Program-made: the position numbers and the translations under genes
Assembly: GCA_029051735.1 (NCBI GenBank)
Contig: JAIDKZ010000156.1
Coordinates: 1 to 42,662 of the forward strand
Source of the DNA: Anaeroplasmataceae bacterium
GTDB taxonomy: Bacteria; Bacillota_I; Bacilli_A; Acholeplasmatales; Anaeroplasmataceae
Length of the DNA stretch: 42,662 bases
Direction: 5' to 3'
Notes under the pieces: generated by a model
What the model was told of the DNA's origin: nothing
What the model saw: only the letters and a program-made list of their open reading frames with translations
The model's database searches: none
Shown: one piece after another, positions 25,490-33,096 of the stretch
Layout of the letters: every line of letters begins with the position of its first letter
How positions within the stretch are numbered: position 1 is the stretch's first letter

Positions 25490-25572
25490 TTATCAAAAAT
25501 GCTTCCATTTTTTTACAAATGTTTAAAAAAACAAAAAATAATAGATAATCTTGATTTTAAATGATATTTTTC

Positions 25573-25601
25573 TTGATACATAAAGAGTTTTACGATATAA
25601 T
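25573..25601 (+). promoter_or_regulatory. Promoter of the beta-helix lipoprotein gene
   Basis: TTGATA and TATAAT are spaced by 17 bases. Because it lies downstream of the ORF-track start at 25561, it rules that start out and supports 25648. Confidence 0.85.
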
Positions 25602-25647
25602 ATTTAAGAGATTCAAAAAAAATATAAGTGTAAAGGATTTAGGTATT

Positions 25648-27270
25648 ATGAAACGACTTATTATGATATGTTCTACGCTTTGTTTAGGGGTATTACTTTT
25701 ATTAACAGGGTGTTCAAAGAATAATTTACCAAATATAGATGGTAGTTTAAAAATTGTTAATGGTAAAACAAATTTAAGCGTAACAGCTAATTTTACAGAT
25801 TCAGATGATCATGCATTATTTAATGGTAATGTAAGTTCATATATTGTATTGAACAATACAAAAGAAGAAAAAGAGATTACTCGTAAATCTGTTACAATTA
25901 AAAAAGAAAGTGGAGAAGAACCTACACAAACTTTAACAAGCAATAGTTTGGATTTTACTGGTTTGACTGCTGATACAAGTTATACTTTAAAATTGATAAT
26001 TTCAGCTAAAGGAAAACAACGTACAATTTCCACTTCAACAGTTAAAACGATTAACAATGGAGCTTCAGCAGACGATCCTATTAAAATTGAGGATTTAGAT
26101 GGATTGTTAAATATGAATAATGGGAATGATTCATATTATATATTAGAAAAAGATATTGACTTAGGTGGAGAAAAATTGACATCTATATTCAATTCTAGTA
26201 CTTATTTTAAAGGAGTATTTAATGGAAACAATCATATGATTTCAAATTTCTCTTTAGAAAGTAATCAGTATAATGGTTTATTTGGTTATATGTCTAATGC
26301 AGTAGTTGAAAATCTAACATTATCCAATGTTTCTTATGATGCAAACCGTTCAGACACATATTTAGGTGCTTTATCTGGTTATGCTAAGAATTGTACAATA
26401 CGTAATGTTACAATTGATGGATTGAATTTTGTTCATTCAGGTCAAACAACAAGAATGAACTATGTTGGTGGTTTAATTGGTAAAGCCGAGAATTCAACTA
26501 TTGAAAATTGTACAATCAATGGGTTGAAAATTAATATTTCTAGAGCACAATTATATGTATATACAGGTGGCTTTATTGGAGAAAATGAAAATACATTGAT
26601 TACAGATTGTAGTGTTTCAGGAAGCATAGAAGCAACAATTGCATATACTTCTAATGATAATGGTTGTTTATTTTTAGGTGGATTTGTTGGTGCAAATTGT
26701 TCTAACAAAGGTATAAAAAATTGTTACTCTATTGTTGATATTAAAGTTTTAGAGCCAACTTCTGTTACTAGTAGCGGAACAAAAACACATCAAGTACATG
26801 TTGGTGGATTTGCAGGAAGTAATTTCCATGATGGTGCATATTATGATAATTGTGCTGGCGTTGGACAATTAGATGTTACAGTTGCATATTCAACTTATGT
26901 TTGTATTGGTGGATTTGCTGGTAGTACTTTTGCTAAAAATAAAGGAGAAGTAGAGGTAAATACTTCTCGTATGATTAACTGCATTTATGTACCTACAGGA
27001 AAAGGTTTAACTGTTACTTTGATGACGCAAGGTGAGGCAAAAGAAGGTGAAACTGCTCCTTTTACAACACAGGAGGCTTATGTTTCTTTAACAGTTGGTC
27101 GCTATGGTAGTAAAACTGAGCAATCTATGGATAATGTAATTTGTTATTCTAGAAATTTAGTTGTAACGAATACACATGATAATTATAAAGAAACACCATC
27201 TGTAGTTTCTACTATAATCACTGCGTTTAGTCAGACAATTCAAAATGTAATTATTCGTGCAACAGCATAA
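25648..27270 (+). CDS. Surface lipoprotein with GLUG-like beta-helix repeats
   Basis: The start at 25648 gives MKRLIMICSTLCLGVLLLLTGCS, a clear lipoprotein signal with AAAGGA upstream. A fibronectin-III-like beta segment follows (about 25-130). The rest is a ladder of Gly-rich repeats such as NGLFGYMSNAVVENLTLSNV, GGLIGKAENSTIENCTING, GGFIGENENTLITDCSVSG and GGFVGANCSNKGIKNCYS, matching GLUG-type repeats expected to wind into a right-handed beta helix. Such proteins often act in adhesion or glycan binding, but no catalytic site is visible. It has its own promoter, divergent from the activator operon. Confidence 0.8.
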   Translation: MKRLIMICSTLCLGVLLLLTGCSKNNLPNIDGSLKIVNGKTNLSVTANFTDSDDHALFNGNVSSYIVLNNTKEEKEITRKSVTIKKESGEEPTQTLTSNSLDFTGLTADTSYTLKLIISAKGKQRTISTSTVKTINNGASADDPIKIEDLDGLLNMNNGNDSYYILEKDIDLGGEKLTSIFNSSTYFKGVFNGNNHMISNFSLESNQYNGLFGYMSNAVVENLTLSNVSYDANRSDTYLGALSGYAKNCTIRNVTIDGLNFVHSGQTTRMNYVGGLIGKAENSTIENCTINGLKINISRAQLYVYTGGFIGENENTLITDCSVSGSIEATIAYTSNDNGCLFLGGFVGANCSNKGIKNCYSIVDIKVLEPTSVTSSGTKTHQVHVGGFAGSNFHDGAYYDNCAGVGQLDVTVAYSTYVCIGGFAGSTFAKNKGEVEVNTSRMINCIYVPTGKGLTVTLMTQGEAKEGETAPFTTQEAYVSLTVGRYGSKTEQSMDNVICYSRNLVVTNTHDNYKETPSVVSTIITAFSQTIQNVIIRATA

Positions 27271-28664: not shown

Positions 28665-29041
28665 TGGATGCTGTATTATTAAATGGTTTAACATTAGCTT
28701 ATATTGGAGATGCAGTATATGAAATATATATTCGCCAGTATGCATTAAATTTAAATTTAACCAAGGTAAATGATTTACATAAAAAAGCAATTCAATATAC
28801 AAATGCTTCTTTTCAAGCTAAGGCGATTCATTATTTAATAGATAATCACTTTTTAGAAGAGGATGAAATAAAAATTTATAAAAGAGGAAGAAATTCTCAT
28901 GTTCATACCGCAAGAAAAAATGTTGATTTATCTGAATATTTGGATGCTACAGGATTTGAAGCATTGATAGGATATTTATATTTAAATGATCAAAAAAATC
29001 GATTGGAAAAAATTATTGAAATTTCTATTGATTTAGATTAG
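28649..29041 (+). CDS. mrnC: Mini-ribonuclease III
   Basis: This is an RNase III catalytic domain without a dsRNA-binding domain, known in Bacillus to mature the 3' and 5' ends of 23S rRNA. The signature LAYIGDAVYEIYIRQYAL holds the acidic active-site residues, and the C-terminal EALIGYLYLN carries the second acidic cluster. The 130-residue length is usual. The ORF start overlaps the cysS end by 16 bases; an ATG at 28664 (TAATG) is an equally possible start. Neither has a strong ribosome binding site, so coupling to cysS is likely. Confidence 0.93.
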   Translation: MGNSLMDAVLLNGLTLAYIGDAVYEIYIRQYALNLNLTKVNDLHKKAIQYTNASFQAKAIHYLIDNHFLEEDEIKIYKRGRNSHVHTARKNVDLSEYLDATGFEALIGYLYLNDQKNRLEKIIEISIDLD

Positions 29042-29050
29042 GAGGTAACT

Positions 29051-32000
29051 ATGGCAACTTTTGATGATAAAAGTATATTTGGTAAAAAAGAAGATACTGA
29101 AGAAAAAGTTAAAGAAGAAGAGTCAGAAGAAGCTTTAGAGGAGACAGCAGAAGAACTTATAGAAGAGGAAACTGCTGAAGAAATAGCTGAAGATGAAAAT
29201 GAAGATGCTATTGTCATTGGAGAAGAAGTTATTGAAAGTGACAAGGTTCGGAAAAAAAGAGAAAAACGCGAGGCTAAAGAGCAAAAAATTGCTGATAAGC
29301 AATATGCTAAAATGGTAAAAAAGCATCGTAAAGAAATGAAAAATAATCCTGAAAATATCAAAAGATATAATACAGATGCTGATAAAGGATTGCCAGATGA
29401 AGTAGTTGAAAAGCGTATTTTAGATGATTTGGTAAATGTTACTAAAAAAGGATCTTCTAAATCTCGTAAAATGATTGTAATTTCTAACATCTTTACTTTC
29501 TTCAATATTTTAACATTATCTATTGCAATATGGTTGATGACCATCCAAGCATGGACAGATTTGGTATTTTTAGTAATTGTTACTGCTAATACTGTAATTG
29601 GAATTTATCAGGAATTAAAAGCAAAGAAGACCATTGATCGATTATCTTTACTTTCTGCACCAAGTGCTGTAGTAGTTCGTGGTGGAGTGACCAAAGAAAT
29701 CAATGTGGTTGATGTTGTTTTAGATGATTTGATTATTTTAAATTCTGGTAATCAGATCTGTGCAGATAGTGTTGTTGTTGATGGGTCAGTAGAAGTTAAT
29801 GAATCTTTGCTTACTGGTGAAAGTAATGCAATTATAAAAAAACCAGGTGACTTGTTATTTTCTGGTTCATATGTAGTGTCTGGAAAATGTCGTGCTCGAG
29901 TTGATAAGGTTGGTAAGGATAATTATATTGAAAAACTTTCTGATCAGGCTAAAAAATATCAAAAGCCAAACTCTGAATTATTAAAATCATTAAAATGGAT
30001 TATATATGCAATGGCATTTTTGATTGTGCCAATTGGTGTAGCTTTATTTTGCTTACAGTTATTCAACAGTGGTATTCCTTATGTTACAGCTGTAAGAAAG
30101 ACAGCAGGTGCCATGGTGGGTATGATTCCATCAGGATTATGGTTATTAACATCTGTAGCTTTATTTGTTGGTGTAATCAAATTATCTCAGAGGAATGTAT
30201 TAGTTCAAGAATTATATTGCATTGAAATGCTAGCTAGAATTAATGTTTTATGTTTGGATAAGACAGGTACAATAACGGATGGAACAATGAGTGTGAAGAA
30301 TGTCATTGATTATAATACGTTATATGGGATGACAACAAAGAATATAATTTCAGCAATGTTAAATGCGCTCAATGAACATAATTTAACCTCAAAGGCTTTA
30401 GAAGAAGAATTTGGATTGAATAAACGTATAAAGCATACAGCAACAATTCCGTTTAGTTCACAAAGAAAGTTTAATGCAGTTACCTTTGATAAAATGGGGA
30501 CTTTTGCGTTAGGAGCTCCAGAATTTGTTTTAAAGAAGAATTTTGATCAGATTAGTAAAGAAGTAAATAAATATGCTGGAATGGGGTATCGTGTACTTTG
30601 TTTGGCACATTTTAACGGTACAATTAATGATAATCAACTTCCTGCTTCAGAACCAGAGGTTATATCATTGATTTTAATAGAGGATAATATTCGTCCAGAT
30701 GCGATTAACACAATCAATTATTTTAAAGAAAGTGGAGTATCTGTAAGAGTAATATCTGGAGATAATCCAATTACTGTATCCAAAATTTCAGAGCGTGCAG
30801 GAATAGAAAATGCAGATCAGTATATCTCTTTAGATGGTCTTTCTGATGCAGAAGTCGAAAGAGCAGCATTAAAGTATACAGTGTTTGGGCGTGTTTCTCC
30901 TTCTCAAAAGAAGCTTTTAGTTACTACGTTAAAGAAGTCTGGTAAGAAAGTAGCAATGACAGGTGATGGTGTTAACGATATCCTTGCTTTAAGAGAAGCA
31001 GATTGTTCTATTGCTATCGCATCTGGTAGTGAGGCTGCTCGTAATGTTAGTCATTTAGTTCTTTTGGATTCTAATTTTGATTCTATGCCTAAAGTAGTTT
31101 CAGAGGGTAGAAGAGTAATCAACAATGTTACAAGTGTTGCTTCCTTATTTTTAACTAAAACAATTTTCTCATTACTTTTAGCAATTCAAGCTATGATTAA
31201 TGGTGGTGCATATCCTATATCTACAAATCAGTTGATCATGATTGATTTGTTTGCAATTGGTATTCCATCATTCTTCTTAGCATTAGAACCAAACAATAAA
31301 GAAGTTGAAGGAAATTTCTTAGGAAATATTTTAAAAGGTGCCTTGCCTGGTGCTTTGACAATTATGATGATTTCTTTGCTGATTTTTGGATTATCTAATA
31401 GTTTAAGTTTGGATACAATTTCCATTCAAACAATTATTGTTATTGCGGCTACTCATACTTGTTTAATGGTATTATTTAAAGTATCAAAACCATTTAATAC
31501 TTTGCGAAGAACATTATGTATTTGTTGTTATGGAGCTTTCCTAATTATTGCATTCTTGTTGCCTCAGTTCTTAGAATTTAGGCCAGTTGTTCCTTTTTCA
31601 GAATATTATTCAAGCAGTATTCGTGAGGATAGACTGATGTTTACACCTCAAATAGAGATTAGTAAAGATTATTATTATGTGTTTGATGGAAAGGTAACAA
31701 AATATCAAAAAGTTTCATCAGAAAACAATATAAATATATCTTGTTTTCATGATTTATCTTTAGACAAATATTTTTATGTATTTAATGGTACTAATATTAA
31801 AGAGGAAGTTGTAATTCCTAATATCAGTTTTATGTCAGATGGAAGTGTTGTATTGGGCGGAACAACAGTTTTCTATGAAGAAGAAGTTGATGGCGTTAGT
31901 CAAAAGAAAAGTATTATGTATGAACCTGGTTTTGAATCTAAATTTAAAGTCAAATCAGATGGTAAATTAGAATATAATGGTAAACCAGTTATGAGAACAT

Positions 32001-32857
32001 TAACTGCTACAGATGAATATTATGGTTTTTATAACAAATATGGAAAAAATCAGACTTTGGATATTCAAATTTGTATTATGCCTACAGTGGAACTTAAAAA
32101 TGATCAGTTGACTGTAACACCTCGTATTTCTAATATCAATTCTGCTCAGGATTCTACTACAAAAACTTATAAGATAAATATTTCATCAAAGGAAAATTTA
32201 AAATTATCAATTGATGAAAATACTTTAGAATTACTAGTCAATGGGCAAAAACTTGGTAATATGTTAGAAGATGGATCTATTTCTTCTAATACATATAAGG
32301 TAGAATTACCAACAGTATCTTTTGACAAGGATAGAAATATTATTATCAATGGATTAGATACAGAGATTAATGCTTCTTTATTTGATGTGGAGGTTAAGGA
32401 TGGATTGGTTTCCAATTCATCTAATATAAAGGTATTACCTTATGATGCTTCTTATTATCTTGTAGATAAGAATACTTCAACAGTAAGTGCTGGAATGAAT
32501 ACTTCAATTCGTTTATCCAATCCATTAATATGTCCAGATGTTACAACTACAGTTAGTGGTAATTATATTATTGATGGTTATTATACAGATTTTGCAGTTA
32601 CATCTAATACTCCAGATCCAAAAATAGATGGAGATTATAACTTGATTTTAGGTGGTGTAGTCACAGATTATAGGATTTCTCCTAATCTAGTGTCTACAAA
32701 TACAAGTGGCATTGTTAAGCAATTAACAATTCAAGCTAAAATATTTTTATTAATGTTATGCTTGCTTGCAGTTCCATCAATGAATTTATTACAGGCTATA
32801 GTTCCTTGGATTAAAAGACAAATTGCATTGATTCAAAAAATATTATCTAAATTTTAA
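29051..32857 (+). CDS. P-type cation ATPase (CtpE-like) with acidic N-tail and large ectodomain
   Basis: This is a cation-pumping ATPase of the plasma membrane. Core motifs are present: TGES (Glu257), DKTGT with phosphorylated Asp403, and GDGVNDILAL. The LVQELYCIEMLARINVLCLDKTGT context resembles CtpE-type calcium-related pumps. The M4 motif reads IPSGLW instead of IPEGL. An acidic 80-residue head (runs of Glu) precedes the core. After the helix ending near residue 843, a beta-rich stretch of about 380 residues is inserted before a final helix (about 1231-1250), placing it outside the cell by family topology. At 1268 residues it is far longer than the usual 780-920. It sits between mrnC and rlmB, with GGAGGT overlapping the mrnC stop. 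Confidence 0.9.
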   Translation: MATFDDKSIFGKKEDTEEKVKEEESEEALEETAEELIEEETAEEIAEDENEDAIVIGEEVIESDKVRKKREKREAKEQKIADKQYAKMVKKHRKEMKNNPENIKRYNTDADKGLPDEVVEKRILDDLVNVTKKGSSKSRKMIVISNIFTFFNILTLSIAIWLMTIQAWTDLVFLVIVTANTVIGIYQELKAKKTIDRLSLLSAPSAVVVRGGVTKEINVVDVVLDDLIILNSGNQICADSVVVDGSVEVNESLLTGESNAIIKKPGDLLFSGSYVVSGKCRARVDKVGKDNYIEKLSDQAKKYQKPNSELLKSLKWIIYAMAFLIVPIGVALFCLQLFNSGIPYVTAVRKTAGAMVGMIPSGLWLLTSVALFVGVIKLSQRNVLVQELYCIEMLARINVLCLDKTGTITDGTMSVKNVIDYNTLYGMTTKNIISAMLNALNEHNLTSKALEEEFGLNKRIKHTATIPFSSQRKFNAVTFDKMGTFALGAPEFVLKKNFDQISKEVNKYAGMGYRVLCLAHFNGTINDNQLPASEPEVISLILIEDNIRPDAINTINYFKESGVSVRVISGDNPITVSKISERAGIENADQYISLDGLSDAEVERAALKYTVFGRVSPSQKKLLVTTLKKSGKKVAMTGDGVNDILALREADCSIAIASGSEAARNVSHLVLLDSNFDSMPKVVSEGRRVINNVTSVASLFLTKTIFSLLLAIQAMINGGAYPISTNQLIMIDLFAIGIPSFFLALEPNNKEVEGNFLGNILKGALPGALTIMMISLLIFGLSNSLSLDTISIQTIIVIAATHTCLMVLFKVSKPFNTLRRTLCICCYGAFLIIAFLLPQFLEFRPVVPFSEYYSSSIREDRLMFTPQIEISKDYYYVFDGKVTKYQKVSSENNINISCFHDLSLDKYFYVFNGTNIKEEVVIPNISFMSDGSVVLGGTTVFYEEEVDGVSQKKSIMYEPGFESKFKVKSDGKLEYNGKPVMRTLTATDEYYGFYNKYGKNQTLDIQICIMPTVELKNDQLTVTPRISNINSAQDSTTKTYKINISSKENLKLSIDENTLELLVNGQKLGNMLEDGSISSNTYKVELPTVSFDKDRNIIINGLDTEINASLFDVEVKDGLVSNSSNIKVLPYDASYYLVDKNTSTVSAGMNTSIRLSNPLICPDVTTTVSGNYIIDGYYTDFAVTSNTPDPKIDGDYNLILGGVVTDYRISPNLVSTNTSGIVKQLTIQAKIFLLMLCLLAVPSMNLLQAIVPWIKRQIALIQKILSKF

Positions 32858-32866
32858 TACATTATT

Positions 32867-33055
32867 TTGTCAAATTTTGTCCATACTAAATTTGGTGATG
32901 GTATGCAAGACAATTTTGATGATAAAAAATTTAAAAATACGAGTTATTTTCTTCAACGATGTGTTAAGGTAGAAGAATTCTATGATTATGAATTTGGAAC
33001 TGAATTTTTTGTTACAGCACCTGTTGAAGTAAATGATATGTATAATCAAAATTAA
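32867..33055 (+). CDS. Small ORF before the rlmB promoter (uncertain)
   Basis: An open frame of 62 codons from a TTG, or 50 from an ATG at 32903 (MQDNFDDKKF). No good ribosome binding site is seen for the TTG; GGTGATGG lies very close to the ATG. A strong terminator sits just past the stop. Base use looks coding, but no family is recognised. It may be a small protein or a remnant. Confidence 0.4.
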   Translation: MSNFVHTKFGDGMQDNFDDKKFKNTSYFLQRCVKVEEFYDYEFGTEFFVTAPVEVNDMYNQN

Positions 33056-33059
33056 TAAT

Positions 33060-33096
33060 TACCTCTATGAAGAATTTTCATAGAGGTATTTTATTT
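33060..33096 (+). terminator. Strong intrinsic terminator before rlmB
   Basis: TACCTCTATGAA and TTCATAGAGGTA make a perfect 12-bp stem with a 5-nt loop, followed by TTTTATTTTA. Confidence 0.88.

Follow-up and report, generated by a model that had tools for sequence, protein, structure and literature searches.

The pump gene described here raised two questions: what a stretch of about 380 residues is doing between the last two membrane helices of a P-type ATPase, and where that stretch came from. The gene lies in the window, the 42,662-nucleotide stretch of DNA from an Anaeroplasmataceae bacterium that was analyzed in this study. Its reading frame ran uninterrupted for 1268 aa, from the ATG at 29051 to a stop codon whose last base is 32857, and a good ribosome-binding site (AGGAGG, 29040-29045) preceded it. 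The core motifs were complete (LTGES at residue 254, DKTGT at 403, and TGDGVND at 637), and together with the order of the A and P domains they placed the protein in the P-type ATPase superfamily; the Pfam families E1-E2_ATPase and Hydrolase were also detected. Hydropathy indicated ten helices, with M9 at about residues 822-844 and M10 at about 1230-1250, so that residues 846-1225 form a single loop from M9 to M10. The reading frame, motifs, and hydropathy agreed with the initial annotation of this DNA, which had described a complete core and a stretch of this length between the last two helices. The features of the gene were as follows.

29051-32857, forward strand: putative CtpE-like (P6-type) P-type ATPase with an M9-M10 ectodomain, 1268 aa
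29051-29362, forward strand: Glu/Lys-rich cytoplasmic N-tail (residues 1-104), low complexity, fast-evolving
29363-31582, forward strand: catalytic and M1-M9 core (residues 105-844), dN/dS 0.01-0.11
29810-29824, forward strand: LTGES, A domain (residues 254-258)
30125-30139, forward strand: M4 motif IPSGL (residues 359-363), with Ser at the position of the Glu in the PEGL of described CtpE/P6 pumps
30257-30271, forward strand: DKTGT phosphorylation motif (residues 403-407)
30959-30979, forward strand: TGDGVND (residues 637-643)
31238-31267, forward strand: M6, MIDLFAIGIP (residues 730-739)
31514-31582, forward strand: M9 (about residues 822-844), by hydropathy
31586-32725, forward strand: predicted extracytoplasmic insert (residues 846-1225), all-beta, degenerate tandem repeats
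32738-32800, forward strand: M10 (about residues 1230-1250), by hydropathy, then a basic cytoplasmic C-tail, VPWIKRQIALIQKILSKF
33060-33088, forward strand: terminator-like hairpin and T-run, 3' of the pump and a small ORF

The N-in, ten-helix topology predicted that the M9-M10 insert is extracytoplasmic. Basic residues (Lys and Arg) fell on the cytoplasmic sides, in the short M8-M9 segment and in the segment past M10, and a cytoplasmic placement of the insert was not obtained. Independent support for the outside location came from the repeats within the insert, which otherwise occur in lipoproteins and amidases, proteins that are extracytoplasmic. The earlier proposal of a surface domain on an ion pump was upheld by both the topology and this kinship. 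An acidic N-terminal tail had been named as a second unusual part. The tail was indeed present (34% Asp/Glu and 21% Lys/Arg over residues 1-100), but proved ordinary, as tails of about 90-112 residues were found in the insert-less relatives L030, L036, L067, L077, and L091, with short ones in others. The tail was rejected as a partner feature of the insert, since it occurs with or without it.

The insert differed from the core in composition, with Tyr at 6.6% vs. 2.3% and Ser, Asn, and Thr also richer, which matched the Tyr/Ser/Asn-rich character first noted, and the M9-M10 loop was somewhat acidic (49 Asp/Glu and 35 Lys/Arg). The insert carried the repeat motif G-x-[YW]-x-[IV]-[DN]-G-x-x-T, and the ortholog alignment contained recurring segments of the form P-x-[IV]-x-[IV]-S-x-x-G-x-Y-x-[IV]-[DN]-G-x-x-T-x-Y. 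A unit profile was built only from repeats of surface proteins and of pumps in another family (f19), leaving out the window's family to avoid circularity, and was compared using hhalign. Six units in the window insert were supported (scores 17.8-29.4) and three were weak, while the null maximum was 12.7 with columns shuffled, and pump core blocks scored at most 10.0. One further unit expected from the predicted strands was not supported. The units, all scored with hhalign, were distributed as follows.

31661-31714, forward strand: repeat unit (residues 871-888), score 27.5
31760-31813, forward strand: repeat unit (residues 904-921), score 24.2
31832-31873, forward strand: weak unit (residues 928-941), score 11, under the null maximum
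31952-31981, forward strand: weak unit (residues 968-977), score 12, under the null maximum
32096-32140, forward strand: repeat unit (residues 1016-1030), score 19.9
32234-32251, forward strand: weak unit (residues 1062-1067), score 10, under the null maximum
32324-32368, forward strand: repeat unit (residues 1092-1106), score 17.8
32549-32602, forward strand: repeat unit (residues 1167-1184), score 25.2, one of the best-conserved segments of the insert
32627-32680, forward strand: repeat unit beside M10 (residues 1193-1210), score 29.4, with VTDYRIS

An HMM derived from surface lipoproteins and amidases only yielded 2.16 hits of at least 5 bits per ectodomain, compared with 0.003 in shuffles and none in pump cores. 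Predicted secondary structure was all strands, about three per unit, in low-confidence models, in line with the beta-rich stretch of the initial annotation. AlphaFold models of two stretches, the C-terminal part and residues 105-1268, had mean pLDDT values of 47 and 49.5 and were used for secondary structure only; structure prediction therefore bore out the strands but not a trustworthy fold. A Foldseek search of the PDB returned no match at E 0.001 or better, and sequence searches of the PDB matched only the pump core with the whole pump (in the alignments shown) and nothing with an f19 insert. The window insert had no significant match in Pfam, PHROGs, or phage sequences. The best PDB match of the repeat profile, a phage fibre at E 0.15, was not used.

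Within the window's genome the repeat profile matched only this pump, bar one insignificant match. Across the class, it matched frames with lipoprotein-like starts (e.g., L053, L054, and L058) and amidase-like frames (L059-L066) resembling cell-wall amidases, identities that were assigned by reading the sequences rather than by a family scan. A lipoprotein-like frame in a member of the window's own family (L106) carried the repeat too. The unit motif is the same as that of the DUF4988 / G-Y-W-x-I-N-G-x-x-T repeats of Bacilli lipoproteins and amidases. Inserts of f19 pumps matched DUF4988 (PF16378) weakly, the best at E 1.1e-6 and 29.0 bits, below the curated cut-off of 30 bits, and the window insert gave no match to it up to E 1. 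No paper on the repeat sequence was found in the open-access literature, where a mention of DUF4988 concerned another subject. Upstream of cysS, positions 25561-27270 (forward strand) encode a 569-aa protein with GLUG motifs, which is probably a surface protein.

The pump locus has the order cysS-mrnC-pump-rlmB, followed by sigH, secE, and nusG. The order cysS-mrnC-pump-rlmB was common to most members of the order whose flanks were examined, with or without the insert, so the insert-less pumps are positional orthologs. Named relatives were uncultured Anaeroplasmataceae and Acholeplasmatales, and two of these records had pumps identical to those of the window's genus-mates. A long insert of about 290 to 470 aa was found at the same syntenic locus in 31 of 31 core sequences from genera g1-g6 of the window's family (f1) that were complete enough to show it. 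Because the insert is in all 31 at one locus, with dN/dS mostly well below 1, it is not a product of chance or of assembly. Between the pump and the terminator hairpin, at 32903-33055 (forward strand), lies a 50-aa ORF that was 70-78% conserved in genus-mates (L002-L009) and 42% conserved in L010, was not found at the examined loci of other genera, and looks like a real small protein.

In a core tree calculated with the insert left out, the 31 insert-bearing f1 sequences grouped together (support 100 and 98) and the insert-less genus g7 fell outside, which suggests a single origin of the insert close to the family's base, with g7 the only genus lacking it. The insert was not confined to this family. 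In five f19 pumps (L087, L088, L089, L094, and L097), which have sister f19 pumps lacking an insert, clean repeats occupied about 270 residues of the M9-M10 loop; in the f9 pump L093, the insert in this loop was about 90 residues long and contained two or three units. Profile-profile comparison of the f1 and f19 inserts gave a probability of 96.6% (E 6e-10), whereas reversed and shuffled controls did not exceed 10%. The family search thus recovered pumps with an insert in the same loop across the window's family and in other families, and no described domain of known role covered it. Well-supported branches of the core tree forced three changes of repeat state (in f1, in a subclade of f19, and in L093 of f9), with insert-less sisters between them. 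Three separate gains at one loop are apparently the simplest history, and one old gain followed by many losses appears less likely. Another f9 pump, L096 (genome G289), had a different, unrelated insert of roughly 200 residues in the M9-M10 loop, helical-looking in character.

Pairwise dN/dS was 0.01-0.11 for the core and mostly 0.12-0.42 for the insert, rough values given the high dS in many pairs; two diverged, poorly aligned pairs had insert values of 0.68 and 0.95. The insert evolves faster than the core while remaining mostly under purifying selection. Conservation across the family was modestly higher in the first and last units (0.33-0.44) than in the middle (0.20-0.38). One pair of loci departed from this pattern of divergence. 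L008 (G007) and L009 (G009) shared about 90% DNA identity over cysS, mrnC, and the core, whereas from M7 to M10, insert included (about 3825-5310 of L009), identity was 96-100%, mostly 99-100%, and insert dS was 0.02 against 0.52 for the core. This looks like recent recombination that replaced the insert as a cassette; an assembly artefact is possible, both genomes being in many contigs. It was the one clear case of an insert swap among 51 pairs across the family, three of which were one genome under two loci.

What the insert might bind was considered in light of the gene content of its hosts. Peptidoglycan biosynthesis genes have been reported in 40-60% of Anaeroplasmataceae genomes (PMC10868615). 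SEDS proteins (PF01098; FtsW/RodA/SpoVE) were absent from the sampled g2, g4, and g5 and most g6 insert-bearing genomes, and the insert was kept in genomes at least 95% complete that had no SEDS, such as G013, G019, G025, and G029. Because the insert persists in genomes without these wall synthases, many of them nearly complete, peptidoglycan or another wall polymer was rejected as its general ligand, for which it is unlikely, and the binding of wall polymers suggested by the initial annotation was not borne out as a general role.

We propose a role that starts from the demonstrated presence, position, and repeat nature of the insert, its kinship with surface repeats, its recurrence in the same loop, the purifying selection on it, and its independence of SEDS. 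In the ancestor of most of the Anaeroplasmataceae, small beta units of three strands each would have entered the M9-M10 loop as a tandem array, from the repeat stock that also supplied secreted surface proteins. M9 and M10 are part of the supporting helix bundle, outside the ion path, so that the loop tolerates a long insert. The array may fold as an elongated beta structure covering the outer face of the pump, its first and last two units, tied to M9 and M10, docking near the membrane and its more variable middle units reaching out as a distal tip to touch some component of the surroundings; this fold, the docking, and the tip are conjectural. The insert would then act like a covalent beta-subunit or KdpC-like cap plus a surface-binding module. 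We consider such an arrangement, a cap joined covalently to the outer side of the pump and bearing a variable tip for binding, the most likely of the readings, at about even odds; for it we infer the fold, docking, ligand contact, and transport effect.

Alternatively, the insert could mainly cap or stabilize the pump, like the Na,K-ATPase beta-subunit or KdpC, serving folding, occlusion, or ion access without an outside ligand. The more conserved flanks and end units fit such a part, KdpC and P2C/P4 beta-subunits are known extracytoplasmic pump covers (PMC10654040), and gain at one loop on separate occasions points to a use connected with the pump, but same-locus relatives manage without the insert, and its wide range of lengths and fast sequence turnover are unexpected for a pure internal subunit, which leaves this reading possible but doubtful. 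Quite improbable, in our judgment, is a tolerated and nearly neutral surface decoration or decoy (e.g., a shield or a phage target) that lengthens as repeats duplicate in a permissive loop; fast divergence, one apparent cassette replacement between species, and several different inserts in the loop, including that of L096, would agree with it, whereas the dN/dS of most pairs and the presence of the insert in every sampled member of six genera would not. The initial annotation had also raised ion sensing or binding, and a sensor or buffer of ions, feeding or gating the pump, could be imagined from the resemblance of the core to a Ca2+-uptake pump and from the somewhat acidic loop. The ortholog alignment showed no conserved motif for ion binding, however, and proteins that have no role in transport carry these repeats too, making this the remotest of the readings. 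The M9-M10 loop could even be an evolvable slot in this pump clade for surface-binding cassettes, repeatedly grafted and exchanged between species, and the pump could double as a variable receptor or adhesin, with binding perhaps coupled to transport, although we think this reading unlikely.

The core appears to be CtpE-like (P6), a divergent branch rather than a typical P6 pump. This assignment was based on the best annotated plasmid-borne matches, HAD-IC P-type ATPases of 36-43% identity that share the CtpE-type M4/M6 pattern; matches to models of other P-type classes were far below cut-off. CtpE/P6 ATPases, including M. smegmatis CtpE, form the functionally uncharacterised family 23, with homologues reported in Tenericutes (PMC5615198, PMC10654040). 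CtpE is described as a Ca2+-uptake pump; in P6 pumps, M4 is said to carry PEGL, and M6 to have Ile instead of the Ca2+-coordinating Asp (PMC10654040). The Ile was present in our pump (DLFAIGIP, Ile736), and PEGL was absent, with IPSGL in the window pump and in orthologs across the order and PAGL in most f19 and f9 pumps. From a hand alignment, we take Asp732 (31244-31246) to occupy the position equivalent to SERCA Asn796, and Ile736 to stand where SERCA has Asp800. At this hand-assigned Asn796-equivalent position of M6, an acidic residue was found in 0 of 12 PEGL pumps and in 79 of the 82 others (94 sequences). An exchange of acidic residues between M4 and M6 fits 91 of the 94, a pattern rather than proof and not statistically independent, since the tree shows only one or two such events. 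The replaced M4 glutamate bears on the open question of which ion P6 pumps carry, and in which direction. In one genome (G055, locus L080), the pump stood in two tandem copies between mrnC and rlmB, the second without the acidic M6 residue. A CtpE-like pump gene on the Burkholderia contaminans plasmid pB1701 (L042) was unusually long, with an annotated length of 3774 bases, and the tail of its translation contains FSFPSSHA, similar to a PAP2 phosphatase motif, making it a possible pump-phosphatase fusion.

The strongest results of this study were the identification of the insert as repeats and the finding that it recurs at a single loop, and the weakest concerned its function. The repeats, their recurrence in other lineages, and the altered M4 motif had not been noted in the initial annotation. 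Compared with CtpE/P6 pumps, the window pump has the same P-type core, ten helices, and an M6 Ile where Ca2+ efflux pumps have Asp, but it carries IPSGL instead of VPEGL, its acidic residue lies at a different M6 position, and it has both an M9-M10 ectodomain and a long acidic N-tail. It is an unusual variant of a known pump family, apparently undescribed in the open-access literature searched. The apparent gains at the same loop from a pool of surface repeats, alongside insert-less positional orthologs in sister lineages, constitute a natural experiment, and the effect of the domain on transport is therefore testable by direct comparison. An extracytoplasmic part at the outer face of a P-type pump recalls the Na,K-ATPase beta-subunit, CDC50, and KdpC by analogy only, as no sequence match between these and the insert was found. 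Those outer-face accessory domains are known as separate subunits, whereas in this bacterial pump a large covalent one, made of tandem repeats, sits inside the M9-M10 loop.
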